From contig WFPM01000144.1 in NCBI GenBank assembly GCA_015487635.1, forward strand, positions 1-42,711: a stretch of DNA of 42,711 nt. The letters are read 5' to 3'. Below, piece after piece: positions 5,321-38,365 of this stretch (position 1 is the stretch's first letter; each line of letters starts with the position of its first letter). The position numbers and the translations under genes are program-made. The DNA is from Rhodothermus sp. (GTDB lineage Bacteria; Bacteroidota; Rhodothermia; Rhodothermales; Rhodothermaceae). The notes under the pieces are model-generated. The model saw nothing but the letters and a program-made list of their open reading frames with translations, ran no database searches and was not told where the DNA came from.

Positions 5321-6637
5321 CTACTGTCGCAGGCCGACCTGCACGTCCATCACGTTCGTGTGCGTGGGGCCGGTAAACAGCAGTTGATCGAGCGCCTTAA
5401 AGAAGGTGTAGGCGTCGTTGTTGTCGAGGTAGGCCTGCGGATCCATGCCGCAGGTGCGGGCCCGGGAGGCCGTGTCGGGCGTGGCCCAGGCGCCGGCCGC
5501 ATCGGTGGGGCCGTCGCGGCCGTCGGTCCCGCCACTGAGCAGCACGGCCTCGGCCTCCCAGCCGTCCATGGCGAGTGCGGCCGCCAGGGCCAACTCCTGG
5601 TTGCGTCCGCCCCGTCCGCTGCCCCGCACGGTTACGGTGGTCTCTCCTCCCCAGAGCAGGCATACCGGTCGGTCTTCACGCCCCTCGCGCAACGCCGTCA
5701 CCAGACGCACGGCCACTTCTCGCGCCTCGCCGGTCAGCCGATCTGTTACGATGCGCACCGAATAGCCACGCTGTCGGGCTTCGTCGGCAGCTGCTTCGAG
5801 CGCCCGCCGGTTCGTACCGATCAGGCGCGTTACGACCCGGGCAAACCGGGGATCGGCCGGCTTGGGGGTCTCCAGCGACGGATCGGTGACGCCGGCTTCC
5901 AGGCGCACGCGCACCGACGCGGGTACCCGGTGCCACAGGTCGTAGCGTCGCAGCACGGCGATGGCCTCGGCAAACGTAGTGGGATCCGGCACGGTCGGTC
6001 CGCTAGCAATGACCGACAGATCGTCGCCCACGACGTCGGAGATGACCAGCGCCAGCACGTCGGCCGGCGCGGCCGCCTGCGCCAGGCGCCCGCCGCCGAT
6101 GCGCGACAGGTGCTTGCGCACCGTGTTGATCTGATGGATGTCGGCACCGCTTTCGAGCAACAGCCGAAACGTGCACTGCGCATCGGCCAGCGTCACCGGC
6201 GGCTCGAAGTCCGCGCACAGCGACGAGCCGCCCCCGGAGATGAGCACCAGCAGCAGGTCATGGTCCGCGCACGCCTCGGCCAGCGAGAGGATGTGTCGGG
6301 CCGCCCGTACGCTGTGTTCGTCCGGCACGGGATGCCCGGCCTCCAGCACCTCGATGCGTCGGGGTGGCGGGCAATGGGGCGGAGGCGTCTGCGTGTGGCC
6401 ATGCGGGACCACCACCGCGCCTTCGGCGACCCGCTCGCCCAGCTGCTGTTCGACCATGCCAGCCATGGCCATGGCGGCCTTGCCCATGCCGGCCACCACC
6501 ACGCGCCGATACTGGTCCAGCGATTTCGGGGCCCAGGTGGTCCAGGGCGTCTGCGTGAGCAAAACGTCGGCCTGTGCGCCGCGCACGGCTGCCCGGAAGA
6601 TGGCCTGCGCGTCGGCTACAAGGTCTGGATGACTCAT
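5321..6637 (-). CDS. Glycerate 2-kinase (GckA/MOFRL family)
   Basis: 438 aa; VAGMGKAAMAMAGMVEQQLG, LISGGGSSLCADFEPPVTL, GGTDGRDGPTDAAGAW motifs. Confidence 0.9.
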   Translation of the reverse strand: MSHPDLVADAQAIFRAAVRGAQADVLLTQTPWTTWAPKSLDQYRRVVVAGMGKAAMAMAGMVEQQLGERVAEGAVVVPHGHTQTPPPHCPPPRRIEVLEAGHPVPDEHSVRAARHILSLAEACADHDLLLVLISGGGSSLCADFEPPVTLADAQCTFRLLLESGADIHQINTVRKHLSRIGGGRLAQAAAPADVLALVISDVVGDDLSVIASGPTVPDPTTFAEAIAVLRRYDLWHRVPASVRVRLEAGVTDPSLETPKPADPRFARVVTRLIGTNRRALEAAADEARQRGYSVRIVTDRLTGEAREVAVRLVTALREGREDRPVCLLWGGETTVTVRGSGRGGRNQELALAAALAMDGWEAEAVLLSGGTDGRDGPTDAAGAWATPDTASRARTCGMDPQAYLDNNDAYTFFKALDQLLFTGPTHTNVMDVQVGLRQ

Positions 6638-25082: not shown

Positions 25083-25859
25083 ATGTGCCAGAAGTGGGCA
25101 AGCTGGGCCCTGGCGCTTTCGTTGCTGATCGCCTCGCCCCTGAAAGGCCAGCAGTTCTTCACCGACTGCATCAGGGATACCGACAACAATGCGACGCTGA
25201 CCATCCCGCTGGAGACGCCGCCGTTGCTTAACGGCGAGCCCATTTCACCGGGTAGCGAGCTGGCAGCCTATACGCCGGAAGGCATCTGCGCGGGCGTGGC
25301 CGTATGGGATGGCCAGCAACCGCTGGTACTGACGCTCTGGGGCGACGATCCGCTGATCACACCCGACACCAAAGAAGGCTTCGCGCCCGGCGATACGATT
25401 CTGTTGCATCTGTGGGATCGGGCGCTGAACCAGCACTTCGGTCCGGATAACGGTCGTTTCGAAGTGCAGTACGCATCGGGCAGCGTGTTTCTGGATCGCG
25501 GAATCTATCAACCCAATGCTCTGTACAAGGTGGCTCGCCTGGCCATCGTGCCGGAGCAACCCACGCCGGTGGAGCCGATAGCCGAGCGGCTTCCGGACGC
25601 CACGCGCCTGCATCCGGCCTATCCCAGCCCATTTCGCACGCACACCACGCTGCAGGTGGATCTGTCGGAAGCTACGCGAGTCCGTCTCGCAGTGTACAAT
25701 CTGATAGGCCAGGAAGTAGCGCGGCTGTTCGAAGGGGCGCTGACCCCGGGCGTCTATCGCTACAGGTGGCGCCCGCAAGGCCTGCCTGCGGGACTGTACG
25801 TTGTCCGATTGGAAGCAGGCGCCCGGCGCTTTCAGCAGGTGATCGTTTACGTGCCCTGA
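25083..25859 (+). CDS. T9SS type A sorting domain-containing secreted protein
   Basis: 258 aa; signal peptide; C-terminal AYPSPFRTHTTLQVDLSEATRVRLAVYNLIGQEVARLFEG..GLYVVRLEAGARRFQQVIVYVP. Confidence 0.82.
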   Translation: MCQKWASWALALSLLIASPLKGQQFFTDCIRDTDNNATLTIPLETPPLLNGEPISPGSELAAYTPEGICAGVAVWDGQQPLVLTLWGDDPLITPDTKEGFAPGDTILLHLWDRALNQHFGPDNGRFEVQYASGSVFLDRGIYQPNALYKVARLAIVPEQPTPVEPIAERLPDATRLHPAYPSPFRTHTTLQVDLSEATRVRLAVYNLIGQEVARLFEGALTPGVYRYRWRPQGLPAGLYVVRLEAGARRFQQVIVYVP

Positions 25860-26170
25860 GCGTCGCGCGTCTCGATGAGACCCTGCGCCTGCAGATCGCG
25901 CATGAGGGCCAGCACGTCCTCGGCGCACTGCTCGAAGGTCACCTCGTACTCTTCGAGCAGCACCTCGCACACCTGACGCACGGAGCGCGGCTCCTGGATG
26001 AGCTCCCAGATGCGGGTGCCGATGGGGTCCAGTCCGTAGTAGACCCCGTTGCGAAGGTTCAGAATAACTACCTCATCGCCCAGCTTCGAGGAGACCTGCT
26101 CGGGAGAAGCGACGACAACGGTTTCCAGCGTCAGCACGGCGTGCGCCATCGGTGTGTCCGTTCGGCTCAT
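25847..26170 (-). CDS. PqqD-family / RiPP recognition element protein (lasso B1-like)
   Basis: 107 aa; VSSKLGDEVVILNLRNGVYYGLDPIGTRIWELIQEPRSVRQVCEVLLEEYEV typical PqqD fold motifs. Confidence 0.87.
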   Translation of the reverse strand: MSRTDTPMAHAVLTLETVVVASPEQVSSKLGDEVVILNLRNGVYYGLDPIGTRIWELIQEPRSVRQVCEVLLEEYEVTFEQCAEDVLALMRDLQAQGLIETRDAQGT

Positions 26171-26189: not shown

Positions 26190-28070
26190 CTACTGTCTTT
26201 TATCGGCACCCGGCAAGAAAACTTGCGCGGGAAGATCGGACGCCTCCGGCTCATAGTGTTGCCGCATCTGCCGCCGCCAGGAGGCGGCGTAGTGGCCGTT
26301 CAGGGCCAGCAGCTGATGGTGCGTGCCCTGTTCGATGACACGCCCTTCGTCCATCACGTAGATCAGGTCGGCCCGCATAGCCGTGGTGAACCGGTGCGTG
26401 ATGATCAGCGCGGTGCGGCCGCGCACCAGCTCGCCGAAGCGGTCCATCCACTCGGCCTCGGTCCACGAATCCATCGCACTGGTGGGTTCGTCGAGCACGA
26501 CGATGGGCGCCTGCCGGTAGAACGCCCGGGCCAGCGAGACCCGCTGCCACTCACCGCCGCTGAGTTCGGCTCCTTCTTCCGTAAACCATTTGCCCAGCAT
26601 TGTATCGTAGCCGTGCGGTAGCTTGCGGGCGATCTCGTCCACCATGGCGCTGCGGGCCGCCCGTTCGATCGCCTCGCGGGTGGGCGGCACCTTGAGGTCA
26701 CCCAGTGCAATGTTGCGGGCCAGCGTATCCTGATAGGGCACGGGAAATTGAAAGAGCACGGTGATGGCATCGAGCAGTTCGCGGCGGTGGAAGCGTCGCA
26801 GGTCGATCCCGTCGATGGTGACGCGTCCTTCGTCGGGGTCATAGAAGCGGCACAGCAGTTTGATGAGCGTGCTCTTGCCGGCGCCGTTGGCGCCTACGAT
26901 GGCGACAGTCTTTCCGGCCGGAATGAGCAGGTCGAGCTCTCGGAGAACCGGGCGGTCGCTGCCGGGATAGCGGAAGGTGACCTTTTCGAAGCGGATGCCT
27001 TCCCGGAGCCGCCGCGGCATGGGCACCGGGTCGTCCGGTTCGGGCAGGACGGTCTGAATTTCCAGAAAAGTAAACAGGTGCTCCAGAAAGAGCGTGTTCG
27101 CGTACATCTGTCCGGCGCTGCTGAGCAACGCACGCATGAGGCCCTGCCCCTGGTTAAAGGCCTGGTAGAACAGGGCCAGGTCGCCCAGTGAGGCCAGGCC
27201 GCGCAGCGCCCGCCCCACCATCCAGACCATCACGAGCGCGGTGGCCAGCAGACCCACCAGTCCGGCCCCGAGGCTGGCCCAGGCCTGACGGCGCATCAGG
27301 TCCAGGCGTCCTTCCCGGAGTCGCCGTCGCACCTCCTGGTACCGCTGCCGGAAGTGGTCGGCCAGATCGAACACGCGCACTTCCGGCGCAAAGAACGCCA
27401 TGGTCAGCAGGCGGTCGAAGTAGCCGGCGCGGCGTTGATCGACGGTGTGGGCCGTCCACCAGGCATGCTCGCGCCGGTGGTGGTGCACCACGACGAACAG
27501 CGCCGGCAGCGTGGTGATGAGCAGCGCCAGCGGGAGCCAGACGCTGTAATGCACCAGAATGGCCGCGATGCTAATGAGCGTGACGCCGTTCTGGAGCAGG
27601 CTGCCCAGGTTATCCAGCAGCGAGAGCGAGCGGCTGGCCGCCTCGCTGTTGGCCCGTTCCAGGTGGTCGTAGTAATCCGGGTTGTCGTAGAAGGCCAGAT
27701 CGACCTCGGCCGCCTTGGCGTGGATCAGGCTTTTCACATGATCCAGCACGTGCTCGGCCTGTGCTGTGCGGATCCAGCTCGTCAATCCGCTCAGCCCCTG
27801 CGAGAGCAGCAACACGCCCCCCATGAGCAGGGCCGGCCACAGGACGGGCTGCACGGTCTCCCAGGAAAGGCCGGTGCCGATGGCGGCCGCCACGGCATCC
27901 ACCAGGTGCTTTGTCAGGTACACCAGGGCGGCCGGCAGCACGCCTCCGATCAGGAGCAACAGCAGCCAGAGCAGTGTCCAGCGGCCCGTCGCTTCCCAGA
28001 TGAGTCGCAGCGCCCGTATCAGATAGGTCGTCTTCAGACGCGCTTCCTGAAGCATCCAGCGCCACGACAC
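26190..28070 (-). CDS. ABC transporter, fused TMD-NBD exporter (lasso D-like)
   Basis: 626 aa; VGANGAGKSTLIKLLCRFYDPDEG Walker A, LSGGEWQRVSLARAFYR signature, IVVLDEPTSAMD Walker B; no C39 peptidase domain at the N-terminus. Start could be GTG at 28070 or ATG at 28055. Confidence 0.9.
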   Translation of the reverse strand: MSWRWMLQEARLKTTYLIRALRLIWEATGRWTLLWLLLLLIGGVLPAALVYLTKHLVDAVAAAIGTGLSWETVQPVLWPALLMGGVLLLSQGLSGLTSWIRTAQAEHVLDHVKSLIHAKAAEVDLAFYDNPDYYDHLERANSEAASRSLSLLDNLGSLLQNGVTLISIAAILVHYSVWLPLALLITTLPALFVVVHHHRREHAWWTAHTVDQRRAGYFDRLLTMAFFAPEVRVFDLADHFRQRYQEVRRRLREGRLDLMRRQAWASLGAGLVGLLATALVMVWMVGRALRGLASLGDLALFYQAFNQGQGLMRALLSSAGQMYANTLFLEHLFTFLEIQTVLPEPDDPVPMPRRLREGIRFEKVTFRYPGSDRPVLRELDLLIPAGKTVAIVGANGAGKSTLIKLLCRFYDPDEGRVTIDGIDLRRFHRRELLDAITVLFQFPVPYQDTLARNIALGDLKVPPTREAIERAARSAMVDEIARKLPHGYDTMLGKWFTEEGAELSGGEWQRVSLARAFYRQAPIVVLDEPTSAMDSWTEAEWMDRFGELVRGRTALIITHRFTTAMRADLIYVMDEGRVIEQGTHHQLLALNGHYAASWRRQMRQHYEPEASDLPAQVFLPGADKRQ

Positions 28071-28148: not shown

Positions 28149-28367
28149 TCAGAGACCGCTCAGGTCGTCATACGGGCAGCGGTTGTTATGGTGATGATGC
28201 CACCAGTGATGACGACGTCGGCCACGACCACCTCCCCTGTGTTTCCAGCCTCCACCCGGCAGCCCTGGAGGATGCCCCCAGCCCGAACCGGTCATCGTCT
28301 CCAGCGAACCGAATTCCGTCAGTCTGGGACGCGCCCACGACTTCTTGGGCACTACAGCGTCCGACAT
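28149..28367 (-). CDS. Putative RiPP precursor A3 (lasso-type leader, Gly/His-rich tail)
   Basis: 72 aa MSDAVVPKKSWARPRLTEFGSLETMTGSGWGHPPGLPGGGWKHRGGGRGRRRHHWWHHHHNNRCPYDDLSGL; W..P.L...G.....T leader signature; directly upstream of the ABC exporter. Confidence 0.72.
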   Translation of the reverse strand: MSDAVVPKKSWARPRLTEFGSLETMTGSGWGHPPGLPGGGWKHRGGGRGRRRHHWWHHHHNNRCPYDDLSGL

Positions 28368-28537: not shown

Positions 28538-28732
28538 TTACCGGCAGTCGCTGAGCGTACCGGGACCCAGCTCGGCGTCATATCGACCGCCATGCTTCCC
28601 GTACCAGCAGTCACCCGCTGTGACCTCGGCGGCCTTGCCGTGCATCACAAGCATGGGCTTTTGCCAAGGCCGCTTGATCGTTTCACCCTTCATGGCAGCA
28701 GCAAGTTGTATGGTTAATCGGGATGGGGTCAT
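28538..28732 (-). CDS. Putative RiPP precursor A2
   Basis: 64 aa as listed (or 51 aa from internal Met at 28693): MKGETIKRPWQKPMLVMHGKAAEVTA-GDCWYGKHGGRYDAELGPGTLSDCR; W..P.L...G.....T leader; paralog of A1. Confidence 0.78.
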   Translation of the reverse strand: MTPSRLTIQLAAAMKGETIKRPWQKPMLVMHGKAAEVTAGDCWYGKHGGRYDAELGPGTLSDCR

Positions 28733-28739
28733 CTCCTAA

Positions 28740-28895
28740 TTACCGGCAGTCGCTGAGCGTACCGGGACCCAGCTCGGCGTCATACTGCCCCCCCTTTTTT
28801 CCGTACCAGCAGCCATCACTGCTAGCCGTAATCTTCTGCGTTTTGCCGTGAATGGTCAAAACCGGCGTCTTCCAGGAGCGTTTCGTGTTACGCAT
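28740..28895 (-). CDS. Putative RiPP precursor A1 (not in supplied ORF list)
   Basis: Read directly: 51 aa MRNTKRSWKTPVLTIHGKTQKITASSDGCWYGKKGGQYDAELGPGTLSDCR; GAGGTG RBS upstream of ATG; tandem paralog of A2. Confidence 0.8.
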   Translation of the reverse strand: MRNTKRSWKTPVLTIHGKTQKITASSDGCWYGKKGGQYDAELGPGTLSDCR

Positions 28896-28997: not shown

Positions 28998-31034
28998 TCA
29001 CCCATCCTGCGCCAAGACGGGAACACCAAGGTCAGCCTTCAGCCACTGAATAAGAATCAAACACAGATACAACGCCATATCCACCGAAGGATCGGTGTCT
29101 GCCTGATGCTGCTGCATATGCTCCCATGCCCGACGCAATCGTTCCGGTTCCACGAAAGGCTGCAATTGCGAAGCGGAAACAATCAGACGAACGATGCGCG
29201 CTTTTTCAAACTGCAGCAATCCAGTCGTGAACCCGTATCCGATATTGGCTTTTGAAGACCGCCACTGCACTTCTGGGGGCAGGATCCCCTCAAGCGCCCT
29301 GCGCAACAGATAGCGTGCCCATCCGTTGCGCAGCTTCCAAGACAGCGGCAAATGCATGCTCAGCGTAACGAGGCGCCGATCAAAGAAGGGAAACCGCTCC
29401 TCCACCTGGAGCCACCCGATCCGCGCATTGGCAAATTCAAGGACCCACTGCCAGATGCCTCCTGTCAACTGCTCCCAGTGATCTCTGCGGGGATGCCAGA
29501 CCTTCGGTCGCGTGGCCGGCTGACGCGCCAGCCAGCGGTCCAGCAACGGCGACAGGTGATAGGCGTCTGTAAAATGCGCGAGCAGCTGCTGCCGACGCAG
29601 GCGTCGGCGCGCGCGTCGTCGTCGCCATCCGGCGGGAATCCACGGCCGCACACCCGACTCCACCAGCAGCCTGCTGAACGCCAGGTCGAACCGGCGGTGC
29701 AGGTACCGCCCCCCTTCCCAAAAGTCCCGCCACCGCAGGGAACGGGCCCATCCGCTCAGCACCGCCCCACCGAACTTGTGCGCAAGGCGCTGCGGTGAAA
29801 GCCCCTCGACTTGTGCGAACACCTCTACCTCCTGTGCAAACCGTTCCCATTGCTTTTGGTAAAAAAGATCGGCCAGATGCGCCCATCCGTAGGTCAGTAC
29901 ACTGTCGCCATCCAGCCCACTCAGTACGATCCGCACCCCGTGTGACTGCATGGCCTGCGTCACACCAATGGGGATGTGATAATTTGCCGAAAAAAAAGGC
30001 TGACCGTACAGTTGAAGCATCATGTCCAGATTCATCAGAGGGCTCACCCGATCCGCCTGAAATACATGATGACACAGATTGGGAAAGCGCTGAATCACAG
30101 CAACGGCATACGATCGTTCGTCCACAGTCGCCCGCCACTCGTCGGGCACCTCTTCAAAAACGGCCGTACCGGCATGCAGCACCTGATCTCTCATAAGATG
30201 AGCCGCCATCCCGGTCACTGAGGAAGAATCCAATCCGCCACTGAGCTGTGCGCCCACGGGAAACGCACTGCGGAGCCGGCACCGGACGGCCTCCTCGAAA
30301 CAGGCGCGAAAGGCTTCCACGTACTCGGCTTCCGTCCTAAAATGCACCTCCTGCTCCAGATCGACCTGCCAGTAACGCCAGCAACGTAGCTCCCGGGCAT
30401 CCACCTGTAGCGCATGACCACCGGGCAAGCGCCGAATTGCCCGGTAAAACGTCCGCACGTTCTCCGTATCAAGCTTCAAGGCCAGATAACGCAGGATCAT
30501 TTCTTCGTCGATCTCCTGCGGCACCTCGGGCAACAGACGCACGGCCGGAAGCAGCGTGGCAAAGGCAAAGCGCCGGCCTTCGTGGAAGTAATAGAACGGT
30601 CGCACGCCCATGCCGTCGCGGGCGGCAAACAGCCGCCGGTGCTGCCGATCCCAGATAGCAAAGGCAAAATCGCCGATGAGCCGATCCGGGCAGTCGGCGC
30701 CCCAGCGGCGGTAGGCAGCCAGGATCAGCTCGGCATCTGTCACCGGTCGCTCGGCGGTCGATCGAAGACGCAGTGCTGCCAGCAGTTCGTCGCGGTTGTC
30801 GATCCGGGCATCGGCCACCAGCACCAGATCGCCTTCTGGAGCAACAAGCGGCTGCTGTTCGTGCAGCGACTCCGGCGTCGTATGGAGCATCCAGTGCGCC
30901 AGTAGCACGGACCCCTCGTGCCAGCAACCCTGGCCGTCCGGTCCCCGATGGGCCAGCACGTCCAGCGCCGGCCGTAGCGCTTCGGGGTCGATCGGGTGTC
31001 CGTCGAAATGGATCAGCCCAAAGATGGCACTCAT
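28998..31034 (-). CDS. Asparagine synthetase-like protein (lasso cyclase C-like)
   Basis: 678 aa; MSAIFGLIHFDG..LAHRGPDGQG; PP-loop LSGGLDSSSVTGMAAHL; no Cys at position 2; ATGA overlap with HPr-kinase-like gene. Confidence 0.87.
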   Translation of the reverse strand: MSAIFGLIHFDGHPIDPEALRPALDVLAHRGPDGQGCWHEGSVLLAHWMLHTTPESLHEQQPLVAPEGDLVLVADARIDNRDELLAALRLRSTAERPVTDAELILAAYRRWGADCPDRLIGDFAFAIWDRQHRRLFAARDGMGVRPFYYFHEGRRFAFATLLPAVRLLPEVPQEIDEEMILRYLALKLDTENVRTFYRAIRRLPGGHALQVDARELRCWRYWQVDLEQEVHFRTEAEYVEAFRACFEEAVRCRLRSAFPVGAQLSGGLDSSSVTGMAAHLMRDQVLHAGTAVFEEVPDEWRATVDERSYAVAVIQRFPNLCHHVFQADRVSPLMNLDMMLQLYGQPFFSANYHIPIGVTQAMQSHGVRIVLSGLDGDSVLTYGWAHLADLFYQKQWERFAQEVEVFAQVEGLSPQRLAHKFGGAVLSGWARSLRWRDFWEGGRYLHRRFDLAFSRLLVESGVRPWIPAGWRRRRARRRLRRQQLLAHFTDAYHLSPLLDRWLARQPATRPKVWHPRRDHWEQLTGGIWQWVLEFANARIGWLQVEERFPFFDRRLVTLSMHLPLSWKLRNGWARYLLRRALEGILPPEVQWRSSKANIGYGFTTGLLQFEKARIVRLIVSASQLQPFVEPERLRRAWEHMQQHQADTDPSVDMALYLCLILIQWLKADLGVPVLAQDG

Positions 31035-31999
31035 GCGTTTTCCTGCTGCATGAAGGTTTCGATGGCGGCCACCACGTCGGGTAACTGTTCCAGTGCAGGC
31101 GGACGCTCCAACGCCAGTAAGGGTACGTAACGGGCCAGATGGCCCACCTGCTGCAGGTGGCGCGCCGTGGCCCGCGTCTGCTCCAGCAGCACCCGCGTAT
31201 AGGTATGCAGCAATAGCTCCAGAAAGGCTTCCTGGCCCCGCAGCGGAAGAATCCGGACGTTATCGCCCGGGCGCAATGCAAACAATGCGGCCAGTGGCAG
31301 CGGACGATCCACGCCGTCCGGCAACCGGGCCACGCGTTTTTCGATGGCCGGATGTACACGCGGCAATCCGTCGAGCGCCATCTCCAGGGTCTGCGCGAGC
31401 GCATCCGGCCAGAGCTTGAGTTGCGGATAGGCAGGCAGAACCAGCGGCGGCCCATCCGGTCGCTCGTCCAGCACGAGCACATCGTCGGTCACCAGTGGAT
31501 AGCCCCGCGCATGCAGCGCGGCCGCCATGGTCGATTTACCGTGCCCTTTTTCGGCAATGAACGCCACCACCCGATCCCCCATGGCCACGGCACTGGCATG
31601 CAGCACCAGATGGCCCCGCTGGTGCATCAGAATGCCCAGTCCGATGCCCAGCAGAAGTACACGAAGCGTCTCGTCGGGCAGTTCAGGCGGCACGTCGTAG
31701 GTAATGCACCGTCCGTCCTCGATACGCAACAATCCGACTTCGTCGTAAATCAGCAGCGCTTCAGTGGGGGTCACGCGCAGGCGATTTCCCTGCCGCTCCA
31801 GCCCTTCGGCCATCGGTGCCAGCGCCTCCCGGTAGATGTACACATTCCCTGCAGCCGGAGCCGCTGGCCTGAGTTCGGGAAGCGGGACATCCGAACAGAC
31901 ATGCAGTCCGAAGACGTTGTAATGGTAGGGCCACGCCTGCCGGGCCCCCGGTTCTGGCTTCGATGTGACCGATACGGACGGGTTGCTTGCCATAAGCAT
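31031..31999 (-). CDS. HPr kinase-like P-loop protein (RiPP/lasso precursor kinase-like)
   Basis: 322 aa; FIAEKGHGKSTMAAALHARGYPLVTDDVLVLDE; overlaps the cyclase-like gene. Confidence 0.8.
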   Translation of the reverse strand: MLMASNPSVSVTSKPEPGARQAWPYHYNVFGLHVCSDVPLPELRPAAPAAGNVYIYREALAPMAEGLERQGNRLRVTPTEALLIYDEVGLLRIEDGRCITYDVPPELPDETLRVLLLGIGLGILMHQRGHLVLHASAVAMGDRVVAFIAEKGHGKSTMAAALHARGYPLVTDDVLVLDERPDGPPLVLPAYPQLKLWPDALAQTLEMALDGLPRVHPAIEKRVARLPDGVDRPLPLAALFALRPGDNVRILPLRGQEAFLELLLHTYTRVLLEQTRATARHLQQVGHLARYVPLLALERPPALEQLPDVVAAIETFMQQENA

Positions 32000-33211: not shown

Positions 33212-34414
33212 TTACTGCGAAGCCGGCGCTGTCGGTTGTTCTTCCACGGCCTTTTTCAGGCGTACCCGTTCCAGAATAGCCCGCCAGGCGCGCAGTGCCA
33301 GCGTATCGGGGAGCTCCACGTCGTCAAAGCGAATCAGTTCGCCGGGCTCGATGTCGCGGGTCAGCACGGCATCGGCCATCAGACCGATCGGCACGTGATC
33401 GGGCTCGTCCAGAATGCGCACGGCCTCTCCCCGCACGTCAAAGCTTCCAATGCCGCGGTCAATGCGCGTACCTTTCGGCAGGCGTCGTTTGGCGATGGTG
33501 GCCACGCTGATGCGCGGGTGGGTTGTGTTGTTCAGCAGAATGCGCCGTTCGAAGAGCACGCGCCGGATAGTCTTCTGGATTTCCAGGTGGCATAGATGGA
33601 ACGGCCGCAGCAACACGTAATACGGACCGTCGCCCAGTTTGAGATATTGCAGGTAGTCGCGCTGATAGTCGTCGTGCTCGGCGGCAATGAATACGCCGGC
33701 CGGCGCGCCCGGCGAAAGCACGTAGTCGCTGATCGGATGTCCGAGGCGGCGGGCTCCGTCGGCCAGCGTGCGTGCGCCCACTTCGACATCTGGCGACTGA
33801 ATCCCGAGCATGCCGCGCACGGCAATGTCGGCTCCCAGTCCGTTGGCCACCAGCGTCTGCTCGATCTGCACCTTGGTGCCATCGGTAAAGGCCGTCACCT
33901 GCGGAAGCGTGATGCCCTGCTTCCGCGCCCAGAAGTGCATCTCTTCGGGCGAGGGATTATGATTCAAGTAGCGTTTGATGTTGCCATAGACCAGCGGTCG
34001 GAAGCCCATCTGGAGAATATCTTCCCGCAGCGCGGCCAGACAACCCGGCTGGTCACCCTCCGCTTCGGTCAGCAGTCCGCGATCGACAAAATAGGAGCCT
34101 GTCGTGATGTGAAATTCGGCGTCCATCGTCACCACCGGGAGTCCTGCTTCCAGGACCCGGCTGATCACTTCGGTAGCATGGAGCACGTCGCCGCTGCACT
34201 CAACCACCAGATCGGCGTGCTCGATCAGATCGTCCAGGCTGTTCGTGAGCAGTTCCGGCCGGGGAAAGTCCGGACGATTGCGGATGTCGGTGCGCGTCAG
34301 CACACGCGTCACGCGCAGATCTTTCACATGCTGCATTGCCATCACGAAGCCGCGGGCGATGAAGCCGCTACCCACAACTCCGATGCGAAAGGAATCCGCC
34401 ATAAACATCCTCAC
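33212..34414 (-). CDS. NAD(P)-binding homoserine dehydrogenase-like oxidoreductase with C-terminal SAF-like domain
   Basis: 400 aa; IGVVGSGFIARGFVMAM Rossmann motif; RLPKGTRIDRGIGSFDVRGEAV...LTRDIEPGELIRFDDVELPD. Confidence 0.72.
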   Translation of the reverse strand: MRMFMADSFRIGVVGSGFIARGFVMAMQHVKDLRVTRVLTRTDIRNRPDFPRPELLTNSLDDLIEHADLVVECSGDVLHATEVISRVLEAGLPVVTMDAEFHITTGSYFVDRGLLTEAEGDQPGCLAALREDILQMGFRPLVYGNIKRYLNHNPSPEEMHFWARKQGITLPQVTAFTDGTKVQIEQTLVANGLGADIAVRGMLGIQSPDVEVGARTLADGARRLGHPISDYVLSPGAPAGVFIAAEHDDYQRDYLQYLKLGDGPYYVLLRPFHLCHLEIQKTIRRVLFERRILLNNTTHPRISVATIAKRRLPKGTRIDRGIGSFDVRGEAVRILDEPDHVPIGLMADAVLTRDIEPGELIRFDDVELPDTLALRAWRAILERVRLKKAVEEQPTAPASQ

Positions 34415-34415
34415 T

Positions 34416-36059
34416 TCAGGTCAGACGGGTTCTTAGATGATCGGCAAGCCGCAAGGTCAGTGCCACAATAGTCAACGTCGGGTTTGCAAAACCGGCGGTC
34501 GGGAAAACGGACGATCCGGCCACGTACAGGTTCTTTACACCATGCACCCGAGCGTCGGGATCCACCACGCCCTCACGAGGACTGGCATGCATGCGCGTGG
34601 TGCCCATGTGGTGAAATCCGCCCGTGATGCCATCGGGCGGAATGCGCCGAAATTCTTCTTCCTGCACGCTGCCCCACCCTAGCCGAGCCAGCTCCTGCGC
34701 CACCAGGTGTTGTGCCCGCTGCAAACTTTCCACATCCTGGCGGCTGATCTGCCAGTGCAGTTCCAGCCGTGGCTGGCCGAACGCGTCCCGGCGCCGGGAA
34801 AGCCGCACCCGGCTTTCGGGATGGGGCGCTTGCTCGGTCATGTGATGTAGCACGAAGGCGACCGGCGTCCGCGTCGCAGTCGTCGGTTTCCCCTTCAAAG
34901 CAAGGAGTCGGGTGGTGGCCCAGGGAACGAGTCGCGGCATGTCGTGCACCAGCTGGAAAAGGTGGCGGGGCAGATCTTCGGGCCAGGTGCGATGCCGGAC
35001 GGCTTCGCGCAACACGCGGAGTGCTTCAAATCCGCCCCAGAGCAGCGGGTTATTGCGGCGAGGCAATGCCAGGCGATCGGTCGGCCAGAGTGCCACGCAG
35101 TAGTTCAGCAGTCCCTCTCGCCGCACCACCTCCTCTTGCAGGGCCAATTTGCCCATCACCCACATGCCTTCATGCGCATGCAGTCGGTAAAAACCCAGTT
35201 GTGGAATCAGCGTCCGGTCGGCCGGCACGAACAGGCCCGAAAGAAAATGCAGGTGCTCCATGAAAAAACGCCCCACCCGATCGTAGGTGTTGCCCAGCCC
35301 GTTCGGGCAGACCCGATTCGAAAGCAGGAGCAGCCGCGCATTCTCCAGGCCACCGGCCGCCAGCACCACACAGCGCGCGCGTACGGTGACTTCGCTCCGA
35401 TCCGGCCGGGCTACTCGGACGCCTTTCACCACTTCGCCGGTATCATTCGTCAGCAGCTCCAGCGCATGCGCGTGCAGGCACACCGTCACGTTCGGATCGG
35501 CCAGCAACGCGGGCCCGTAGTCCCGATAAAATCGAGCGGGATCGCCAAACTGAAACAATGCAGTCCGCAGCACCGCACTTCCTTCCGACAGCAGCGGGCG
35601 TTCCGTAGCCGAAGCCCATGCCTCGGCCGTGTAGGGACGGTCTTCCAGCCCGAAGAAAGCCTGCGCTCGGCGATAATACGGCGCCAGCGTCTCGTACCCG
35701 AACGGCCATCCACTGAAGGGGACCGCTTCGCGCCGCTCGAAGTCGATCGGATCAAGCGGCCGCAGCCGGATACGGCACACACCGGGCGCCACTTCGTAGT
35801 CCCACAGATGGCTGGAACCTCCCAGCGCCCGCGCCCGGACCATGTCCAAGGGAAAGTAGGGATACCCTGTGATGTCGCCCCGGCTGAGCCGGGCACTCTC
35901 CGGATCCGGCCGTTCGCCGCCACTTTCCAGCACGCAGATGCCCAGCCCGCTGTCGCGCAACGCCCAGGCCAGCGTCAGTCCGGCCACCCCGCCCCCTACA
36001 ATGCACAGATCGTAGGGACCCAGCTCCGATCGATCGAACGCTTTCAGATCGATTTTCAT
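34416..36059 (-). CDS. GMC-family FAD-dependent oxidoreductase
   Basis: MKIDLKAFDRSELGPYDLCIVGGGVAGLTLAWALRDSGLGICVLESG; GSSHLW; C-terminal HHMGTTRMHASPREGVVDPDARVHGVKNLYVAGSSVFPTAGFANPTLTIVAL. Start chosen at internal Met with ATGA overlap. Confidence 0.88.
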   Translation of the reverse strand: MKIDLKAFDRSELGPYDLCIVGGGVAGLTLAWALRDSGLGICVLESGGERPDPESARLSRGDITGYPYFPLDMVRARALGGSSHLWDYEVAPGVCRIRLRPLDPIDFERREAVPFSGWPFGYETLAPYYRRAQAFFGLEDRPYTAEAWASATERPLLSEGSAVLRTALFQFGDPARFYRDYGPALLADPNVTVCLHAHALELLTNDTGEVVKGVRVARPDRSEVTVRARCVVLAAGGLENARLLLLSNRVCPNGLGNTYDRVGRFFMEHLHFLSGLFVPADRTLIPQLGFYRLHAHEGMWVMGKLALQEEVVRREGLLNYCVALWPTDRLALPRRNNPLLWGGFEALRVLREAVRHRTWPEDLPRHLFQLVHDMPRLVPWATTRLLALKGKPTTATRTPVAFVLHHMTEQAPHPESRVRLSRRRDAFGQPRLELHWQISRQDVESLQRAQHLVAQELARLGWGSVQEEEFRRIPPDGITGGFHHMGTTRMHASPREGVVDPDARVHGVKNLYVAGSSVFPTAGFANPTLTIVALTLRLADHLRTRLT

Positions 36060-37246
36060 GAAGCCCTGCCGGGATGCAACCGCTCTACCAGCACACGTAC
36101 CGGGCGAATCACCGGATAGAGAAAGGTAAGGCGTTTCGGCAACCGACAGAACACTCGATCCTTTTCTGTAGGCGCCAGTGCCAGTTTCAGGTGATGGCCC
36201 AGGTAGCCGAAGCGATGACGCCAGCGCTCGCGTTCCCGAAAGTGATACCAGAACATGGGCCAGAAGGCGCGCACGTTGGCGTCGTCCCGAAACATCCAGC
36301 GCGTGACCACCTCGCGAGTCATACGCCGGGCTGCTCGCCGCTGGCGAAGTCCTCGTTGCAGCACGTCCGGCACCGGTGCGCCCAGCAGCTCGGCGGCCAG
36401 CGTACATCCGATGGCCAGCACGCGCATTGTCCCCAGACGATGCGCCTGTTGCAGCACGGCCGCTCCGTCCAGGTCGGGACAGCGACGCAGCAGTTCGGCC
36501 ACGTCGGCCACCCAGTTCAGTTTCAGCCAGCGATGTTTGTTGCCGTGAATGACCAGATAGAGCAACAGGTCCTCGGGCGCCATGGTGCGTAGCCTTCGTC
36601 CGGCAAAGGGAACCTGCCGGTGTCGTGCCCAGATCGCCTCGGGATCCAGCGGCAGGTCGTAGATCGTGTAGAAAAAGGCCCAGTGCAGCTCAACGACAAA
36701 GTCGCGGCTTTCGTGAACAAATTCAAACCCGAGCTGCGTGTCCAGATAGGCTTCTGTTTCGGCCTCCTCCAGTTTTTTATGGGCCCGGTAGCCCAGCGAC
36801 TCGAGGACCCGTCGGGCTTTCCAGAAGTCGCTCCGTTTTACCAGCAGGTCGATGTCCACATAGACCCGCGCCGCCGGATCCCCGTAGATGAGCGCGGCTA
36901 GGGCCGGCCCTTTGAAGGGAATTACCGGAATCCCCTCGGCCTCCAGCCGATCGACCAGCCGCAGGAGTTCTTGCGTCTGATGCAGGTTGTGGACGGTCAG
37001 CGCCCGCGCCTCAGCCTCCAGCCGGGTACGCCACGGCTCCGGCACGGCCTCGGGTACCGCCGCCAGCAGGTTCCGGTATACCGGCGCCACCACGCCATGC
37101 CGTAGTGTCCACCGGTACAGCCGTTCCCAGTCGAGCGGTTGTGCCAGCAGCGCCTGCAACTGCGCAGCAGCCGGCGGATCCAGACGGGTTCGCGCCGCCA
37201 GCGTCAGCACCCGTGCTTCCGGTGAAAGGGACGAAACGAGCGACAT
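36056..37246 (-). CDS. Nucleotidyltransferase family protein (PF14907-like)
   Basis: 396 aa; VIPFKGPALAALIYGDPAARVYVDIDLLVKRSDFWKARRVLESLGY, ELHWAFF, LLLYLVIHGNKHRWLKLNWVADVAELL. Confidence 0.82.
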   Translation of the reverse strand: MSLVSSLSPEARVLTLAARTRLDPPAAAQLQALLAQPLDWERLYRWTLRHGVVAPVYRNLLAAVPEAVPEPWRTRLEAEARALTVHNLHQTQELLRLVDRLEAEGIPVIPFKGPALAALIYGDPAARVYVDIDLLVKRSDFWKARRVLESLGYRAHKKLEEAETEAYLDTQLGFEFVHESRDFVVELHWAFFYTIYDLPLDPEAIWARHRQVPFAGRRLRTMAPEDLLLYLVIHGNKHRWLKLNWVADVAELLRRCPDLDGAAVLQQAHRLGTMRVLAIGCTLAAELLGAPVPDVLQRGLRQRRAARRMTREVVTRWMFRDDANVRAFWPMFWYHFRERERWRHRFGYLGHHLKLALAPTEKDRVFCRLPKRLTFLYPVIRPVRVLVERLHPGRAS

Positions 37247-37252
37247 GGCGAC

Positions 37253-38365
37253 TCAGGAAGAAAGGGGCAACGGTGCAACTTCTTCAGACGCGGGAGGCAT
37301 GGATTTTACCGACAGATCCGGCACCGCATGCCGAAACAACTCCTCCGGATAGTTGGGAACGGGTTTGCGCCAGAACCGGCTGCGCAGCCAGCGCACCCCG
37401 CGCGAGATCCAACTCCCCGATGGTCCCAGCCAGGTGAGGACATAGCCCACGCTGCTGCGCAGCGTCCGCCGCAAGCGCAAAGCCTGCCGTAACCGTTCCC
37501 GTGCGGCCTTTCGTTGACCGATGCTCAGCAGCGTATTTCCATAAGTGGTCAGCGCGTAAGCCATGCGGGCTTCGAAGACCGACCGGTACGGCGCCAGCGC
37601 CGGATCCTTCAGAAAATGCCGGTAGCAGAACAGCTCACCCTCGAATCCGTAGAGACGCCAGTGCCAGCTCCGACTGACCCCTCCGGGTTGCCAGCGGCAA
37701 CTGGCCAACCGCTGCGGCACGTAGTAGGCACCACCCTGCTGCGCGCACCGATACAGCAGCCACAGGTCCACCATGGCCCGCGACTCGTCGGCCAGAAACG
37801 TGGGGTGTACAGACGCCCGTCGGAACAACACGGCCCCGATGAACACGGACCGATCGATCAACGCCACCCGCAGAAAATCATCCACCGGACCTTCCGGCAG
37901 GCGCGCGCGTCGCCAGCGCCGGGTGTTGCGATCACTGTCATCCGGAAGCCGCCGTCCTTCGCTGTCCATAACCCAGTGATCACAGAAGGCCAGCACCAGG
38001 CGTGCATCCTGACGAAGCGGTTGCAGCAGCGTCTCCACAAAAGCCGGCTCCAGCGTGTCGTCGTCGCCCAGAAAACAGAAAAAGTCGCCGCGGGCCATTT
38101 CGACGCCCTGTCGCCAGTTGGCCACCAGCCCCCGGTTTCGGTGATTACGTACGTACAGAATGCGATCGTCCCGCACCTGAAAATTCCGGACCACCGCCGG
38201 AGTGTGATCGGTGCTGGCGTCGTCCAGCACGATAATCTCCAGGTTCGGATAGGTCTGCGCACAGGCGCTCGCCAGCGCCGCCTGTAGATAGCCGGCCCGG
38301 TTAAACGTCGGGATCAGAATGCTGACCACGGGCCCCCCGTGCTCTTGGCGGCTGATCTGTTGCAT
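37253..38365 (-). CDS. GT2-family glycosyltransferase
   Basis: 370 aa; VSILIPTFNRAGYLQAALASACAQTYPNLEIIVLDDASTDHTPAVV..FFCFLGDDDTLEP. Confidence 0.92.
   Translation of the reverse strand: MQQISRQEHGGPVVSILIPTFNRAGYLQAALASACAQTYPNLEIIVLDDASTDHTPAVVRNFQVRDDRILYVRNHRNRGLVANWRQGVEMARGDFFCFLGDDDTLEPAFVETLLQPLRQDARLVLAFCDHWVMDSEGRRLPDDSDRNTRRWRRARLPEGPVDDFLRVALIDRSVFIGAVLFRRASVHPTFLADESRAMVDLWLLYRCAQQGGAYYVPQRLASCRWQPGGVSRSWHWRLYGFEGELFCYRHFLKDPALAPYRSVFEARMAYALTTYGNTLLSIGQRKAARERLRQALRLRRTLRSSVGYVLTWLGPSGSWISRGVRWLRSRFWRKPVPNYPEELFRHAVPDLSVKSMPPASEEVAPLPLSS

Follow-up and report, generated by a model that had tools for sequence, protein, structure and literature searches.

The ring of a lasso peptide is normally closed by an Asp or Glu at core position 7, 8 or 9, and the locus described here raises the question of which residues a lasso-type cyclase might join in precursors that carry no acid at these positions. 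The window, that is the whole stretch of DNA analysed, comprises 42,711 nt from Rhodothermus sp. (assembly GCA_015487635.1, contig WFPM01000144.1, forward-strand positions 1 to 42,711).

The gene cluster and its enzymes

The genes of interest are all located on the minus strand, in the order HPr-kinase-like protein (31999-31031), cyclase (31034-28998), A1, A2, A3, ABC transporter and B1. The precursor genes A1 (28740..28895) and A2 (28538..28693), each encoding 51 amino acids, lie on the minus strand where the sequence-only reading had placed them. With 98.1 and 97.9 bits, respectively, against NCBIfam NF033534 "rhodolasso" (cut-off 30), both are members of this family. The longest A2 ORF is open from 28732; because its relatives begin at MKGETIKRPW and have no start further up, the true start of A2 is likely to be 28693. 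The family is present in six of the seven Rhodothermus genomes searched, A1 is kept in the genus, and the cores show a dN/dS of about 0.03-0.19 in the between-species comparison, indicating purifying selection. Chance or non-coding ORFs are ruled out by this selection together with the conservation in six Rhodothermus genomes, and the low dN/dS and the membership of NF033534 mark both ORFs as real genes. No other genome among 399 of the phylum has a precursor over the NF033534 cut-off, and the phylum-wide searches gave no full-length family member outside Rhodothermus; the related cluster L074 emerged from the search of the order.

A3 (28149..28367) is a small ORF with a lasso-type leader in common with A1 and A2, W-ARPRLTEFGSLETMTG, followed by a Gly/His/Arg-rich, acid-poor core ending DDLSGL, and has no match to a Pfam or NCBIfam family. 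Relatives of A3 are found in L014 (7442-7660), L015 (8114-8332), L016 (8357-8575), L017 (8044-8259) and L065 (2753-2950). The cores of this family change fast, are rich in Gly, His, Trp and Pro, and finish with LSGL or LSGP. In the L014 form the core is devoid of both Asp and Glu, and is therefore unable to form a lasso ring. Another lasso-type leader, FEPPRLxYQGRLTEQTGGSFNFS, precedes a tiny acid-free core in L015 (13060-12905, minus strand) and L016 (13435-13145, minus strand), with no cyclase directly beside it.

The macrolactam cyclase (28998..31034, 678 amino acids) scores 813 bits against NF033535 (cut-off 525), is the only lasso cyclase of the genome and lies directly upstream of A1. 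It has the asparagine-synthetase fold, with the SGGLDSS loop at 265, DGDS at 375 and Lys595 kept, and a Ser occupies the position of the glutaminase Cys of asparagine synthetases. Its predicted fold is nearest to TsnB9, asparagine synthetase (AsnB) and beta-lactam synthetase, in an AlphaFold model that, with a mean pLDDT of 69, is not precise enough for conclusions about the pocket. Lasso cyclases convert the ring acid to an acyl-AMP, which is then attacked by an amine (PMC9266682). Rhodothermus cyclases carry TLLP at 160-163, as against SExK in almost every other lasso cyclase of the order; as a clue to mechanism this clade-specific change was considered and points to none.

The HPr-kinase-like protein (31031..31999) is probably a lasso tailoring kinase, possibly PadeK-like, judged from weak HprK matches below the cut-off and from a His-Lys-Asp-Asp motif formed by His134, Lys155 and Asp172-Asp173; its homologues adjoin most lasso cyclases of Rhodothermales. 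The ABC transporter (26190..28070), in which no peptidase domain was matched, is the probable exporter. The PqqD-type leader-binding protein B1 (25847..26170) scores 80.7 bits against NF033536 lasso_PqqD_Bac (cut-off 80) and 76.8 bits against Pfam PqqD. A nucleotidyltransferase-family gene (NTP_transf_5, 36056..37246, minus strand, Pfam 211 bits) may also take part in tailoring, and its homologues are found near many lasso cyclases of Rhodothermales. The minus-strand stretch 33212-38365 contains a GMC oxidoreductase, a SAF-domain oxidoreductase, the nucleotidyltransferase and a GT2 gene in an order that is kept in other Rhodothermus; homologues of several of these genes are close to lasso genes in L073 and L075. 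Given this conservation, the cluster may extend beyond the recognised genes.

The cluster thus possesses a lasso cyclase, a PqqD/RRE-type B1 and leaders of the form aromatic-x-x-P-x-L-...-G-...-T, and lacks both an Asp or Glu at core positions 7-9 and a B2 transglutaminase-like protease of its own. Scans of the cluster proteins against Pfam and NCBIfam profiles revealed neither a B2, so that one hidden within the cluster is ruled out, nor an ATP-grasp ligase. One B2 gene (PF13471) is present per Rhodothermus genome searched; in the present genome it is unlinked, located in a PqqD-kinase-B2-nucleotidyltransferase operon on contig 28 (L003 8687-11560) in which there is no recognisable precursor or cyclase. 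PqqD at least adjoins B2 in the other Rhodothermus genomes examined. It is presumably this unlinked B2 that acts in trans on A1, A2 and A3.

Failure of the ring rule and the invariant core block

The start of each core was set by the leader motif P-x-L-x3-G-x5-T-x, with the cut two residues after the leader Thr. The A1 core SSDGCWYGKKGGQYDAELGPGTLSDCR (28743-28823), whose leader ends in T-A, has acids at positions 3, 15, 17 and 25, and the A2 core GDCWYGKHGGRYDAELGPGTLSDCR (28541-28615) at 2, 13, 15 and 23; the recount agrees exactly with the positions first read from the sequence, and none falls at 7-9. The comparison set consists of 61 precursors beside lasso cyclases, 12 from Rhodothermus and its sister cluster in Salinibacteraceae and 49 from other Rhodothermales, Chloroflexota, Acidobacteria, Sumerlaeota, Deltaproteobacteria, SAR86 and plasmids. 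An acid at 7-9 is lacking in 11/12 clade members against 7/49 outside (p 8e-7, a guide only, since the set was assembled from motif searches with inspection by hand and its related sequences are non-independent); conversely, it is present in 42 of the 49 outside precursors and in one inside the clade, where L074b carries Glu9. Failure of the rule in this clade is inherited, under purifying selection and beyond chance.

The sister member of the clade is the cluster L074 (= L108, SLED01000010) of a Salinibacteraceae MAG. In a tree built from 30 cyclases this cluster adjoins Rhodothermus on a long branch, and support for the placement is moderate (86/81). Its gene order, kinase-cyclase-A-A-ABC-B1, is that of the window, followed by a B2. 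L065 is a second Rhodothermus-type cluster in which Ile replaces the leader Thr; an Ile at -2 is processed in another lasso system (PMC10368454).

In the alignment of the 12 clade precursors, W, P, L and G of the leader are invariant and the Thr is kept in 11. In the core, invariance is limited to C, K, G and D, arranged as C-x(1-8)-K-x-x-G-x-x-D, and a second Cys follows downstream of the block in every member, so that the two conserved Cys noted earlier hold throughout the alignment. The block KxxGxxD, which reads KKGGQYD in A1 (28779..28799) and KHGGRYD in A2 (28577..28597), is free of insertions, which flank it on both sides. The span from K to D is constant at 7 residues, while D, counted from the cleavage site, is residue 13, 15 or 19 (15 in A1, 13 in A2, and 19 in L018 and L074) and the C-to-D spacing varies between 8, 10, 11 and 15. 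KxxGxxD is the sole spaced triple common to five divergent cores, and 3000 shuffled sets yielded no common triple at all, a test that overstates independence since the precursors are related. Among the acids of A1 and A2 only the Asp of YD is invariant. Closure by the Glu two residues after it or by the Asp of SDC is ruled out, as neither residue is conserved among relatives; a cut immediately before the first Cys is ruled out too, as the Cys-to-Asp span is inconstant (9, 11, 12 or 16 residues).

Outside the clade, K-x5-D is found in 6/7 precursors lacking an acid at 7-9 and in 7/42 canonical ones (p 7e-4, based on seven rule-breakers only and on a pattern noticed prior to testing). L106 (KVLGLGD), L133 (KVYGSSD) and L134 (KQPGSQD) from Acidobacteria and L107b (KKIGGDD) from Sumerlaeota are such rule-breakers. 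Three of the seven, L105b, L107b and L186, have an acid at 10 and Gln at 1, and could be ordinary 9-rings with the cut one residue later. The acidobacterial rule-breaker L132a has Arg for Lys, and its block is located three residues further on than in its paralogue L132b. In the canonical L105a (G-KMPGPKD) and L132b (S-KAGGSTD) the block stands right after T-x, from K2 to D8, and an 8-ring closed by the alpha-amine is expected. These observations speak for shifted cleavage, the rival reading treated below. Further regions, of Acidobacteria and others, yielded no new precursor, and the plasmid searches gave mostly ordinary asparagine synthetases plus L187 (normal) and L186 (archaeal, acid at 10). 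The latter (6030-6191 of Halopiger xanaduensis plasmid NC_015658) is an unannotated precursor accompanied by PqqD, B2 and cyclase, with its first acids at 5 and 10.

Candidate amines for ring closure

The genes and their conservation, the failure at 7-9 and the invariant block are established directly; the chemistry that links them is approached below in graded terms. The interpretation tentatively favoured here is an internal ring between the invariant Lys and Asp, with the flanking Cys joined. A1 and A2 would be expressed and would serve as substrates in a divergent system with a lasso-type cyclase, in which B1 would bind the leader W-x-x-P-x-L-x-x-H-G-x5-T-x and the unlinked B2 would cut past T-x. 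The cyclase would activate the Asp of KxxGxxD, and the attacking amine would most likely be the side chain of the invariant Lys six residues upstream, because the new N-terminus lies 12-18 residues from the Asp. The result would be a 26-atom internal ring with an arm on its N-terminal side and a tail on its C-terminal side; the Cys of the arm and that of the tail would probably form a disulfide, and the ring may be threaded. A Ser/Thr close to the tail may be phosphorylated by the kinase, and the product may be exported by the ABC protein. The fuller version, in which the lasso cyclase makes a two-armed lasso with the arm-tail disulfide passing through the ring and the KxxGxxD precursors of Acidobacteria and Sumerlaeota are independent or ancient, is possible but doubtful.

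As judged from the aligned precursors, Lys is the only donor with a constant spacing to the acceptor. A side-chain ring from Lys(i) to Asp(i+6) is computed to contain 26 atoms, as many as a Gly1-Glu8 lasso ring, and this match and the K-x5-D association outside the clade are among the supporting facts. The Lys reading also keeps the leader Thr rule, retains both Cys in the product and accounts for the invariance of Lys. Usual cleavage is backed by the leader Thr in 11/12 precursors and by L074, which has its own B2 within the same gene order. Against the Lys reading stand the Arg in place of Lys in L132a, the block at its normal place in L105a and L132b, the Glu9 of L074b and the lack of an in-cluster B2. 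We know of no precedent for a lasso cyclase using a Lys side chain. The options listed in the sequence-only reading (large ring, shifted cleavage or other chemistry) still stand, but that list omitted the Lys side-chain donor.

The main rival to the Lys reading is shifted cleavage, in which a further protease strips off the stretch with the Cys; the core would then start with Gly or Cys and form a conventional lasso ring of 8 or 9 residues. The sequence-only reading had pointed out that an 8- or 9-residue ring closing on the Asp of YD needs a core beginning at G(KxGG) or Y, which leaves the Cys in the leader, and the start at Gly is a live possibility, as Gly directly precedes Lys in 8/12 clade members. 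A Gly (Cys in L065) is located 7 or 8 residues ahead of the Asp in all 12, giving candidate rings such as GKKGGQYD, GKQGGKGD, GDKQNGRGD, GLKTAGRAD and CLKPSGVGD; the first position of such rings accepts Gly, Cys, Ser, Ala and, in a single case, Asn (PMC12670498). Shifted cleavage uses known chemistry, and L105a and L132b present the block directly past T-x as a normal 8-ring, with the Arg-containing block of L132a displaced from that of its paralogue. However, the invariant first Cys would be discarded in 11 of the 12 precursors, the leader Thr would no longer be at -2 but far upstream of the cut, and a second protease would be needed, of which none is seen. It also gives no reason for the invariance of Lys, and its ring would start at an inconstant distance from Lys or Asp. 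Shifted cleavage is considered unlikely, though a serious contender.

A large N-terminal macrolactam, formed after the normal cut from the alpha-amine to the Asp of YD, would preserve both Cys, comply with the leader Thr rule and rely on known enzyme chemistry. Its ring of 13-19 residues would be locked by the disulfide, either as a giant lasso resembling class III, whose members have a ring-tail disulfide (PMC9266682), or as an unthreaded branched ring. Ring size would have to be 15 in A1 and 13 in A2 within one genome and 19 in L018 and L074, that is 40-58 atoms, whereas a change of one residue usually lowers the yield (PMC13352647). Because of this variation, a simple large ring ranks last in likelihood among the three options first proposed, and is quite improbable. 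That no Asp-based macrolactam is made on A1 and A2, the cyclase acting elsewhere and the two being disulfide-looped linear or phosphorylated peptides, would fit the kinase-like gene and the A3 relatives, in which the same leader precedes cores poor in or free of acids, an indication that lasso leaders can carry ring-unfit cores, but is very unlikely given that the single lasso cyclase of the genome lies directly upstream of A1 and that K, G and D are invariant.

Relation to known systems

The system is lasso-type by its enzymes and leader, and its product is not to be filed as a lasso peptide while the ring is undefined. Clusters of paeninodin and pseudomycoidin, in which tailoring is by a kinase and a nucleotidyltransferase (PMC9266682), resemble the window in that HPr-kinase-like and nucleotidyltransferase genes are found near its lasso genes too; A1 and A2 differ in having no C-terminal Ser and in failing the ring rule. 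Lasso clusters of Rhodothermales and Chloroflexota with an NF033535 cyclase are alike in cyclase, B1, kinase, exporter and leader motif, but their cores have an Asp or Glu at 7-9 past T-x, which those of the window do not. By sequence A1 and A2 belong to NF033534 "rhodolasso", annotated as 'lasso peptide'. The literature searched gave no structure or product for this family, whose definition apparently includes neither the failed ring rule nor the tie to L074.

Genome mining presumes that the leader Thr is followed by a ring acid at core position 7-9, and precursors like A1 and A2 may for this reason be overlooked or mis-drawn. If the trimming explanation is true, a second processing step has gone unrecognised in lasso biosynthesis. 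Should the Lys reading be true, lasso cyclases can form rings within a chain, and two-tailed interlocked peptides become open to design. The bond of the Lys-Asp ring would be of the type found in graspetides, which possess side-chain rings from Lys, Ser or Thr to Asp or Glu; graspetide rings are built by ATP-grasp ligases, whereas the enzyme of the window is a lasso cyclase of the asparagine-synthetase fold.
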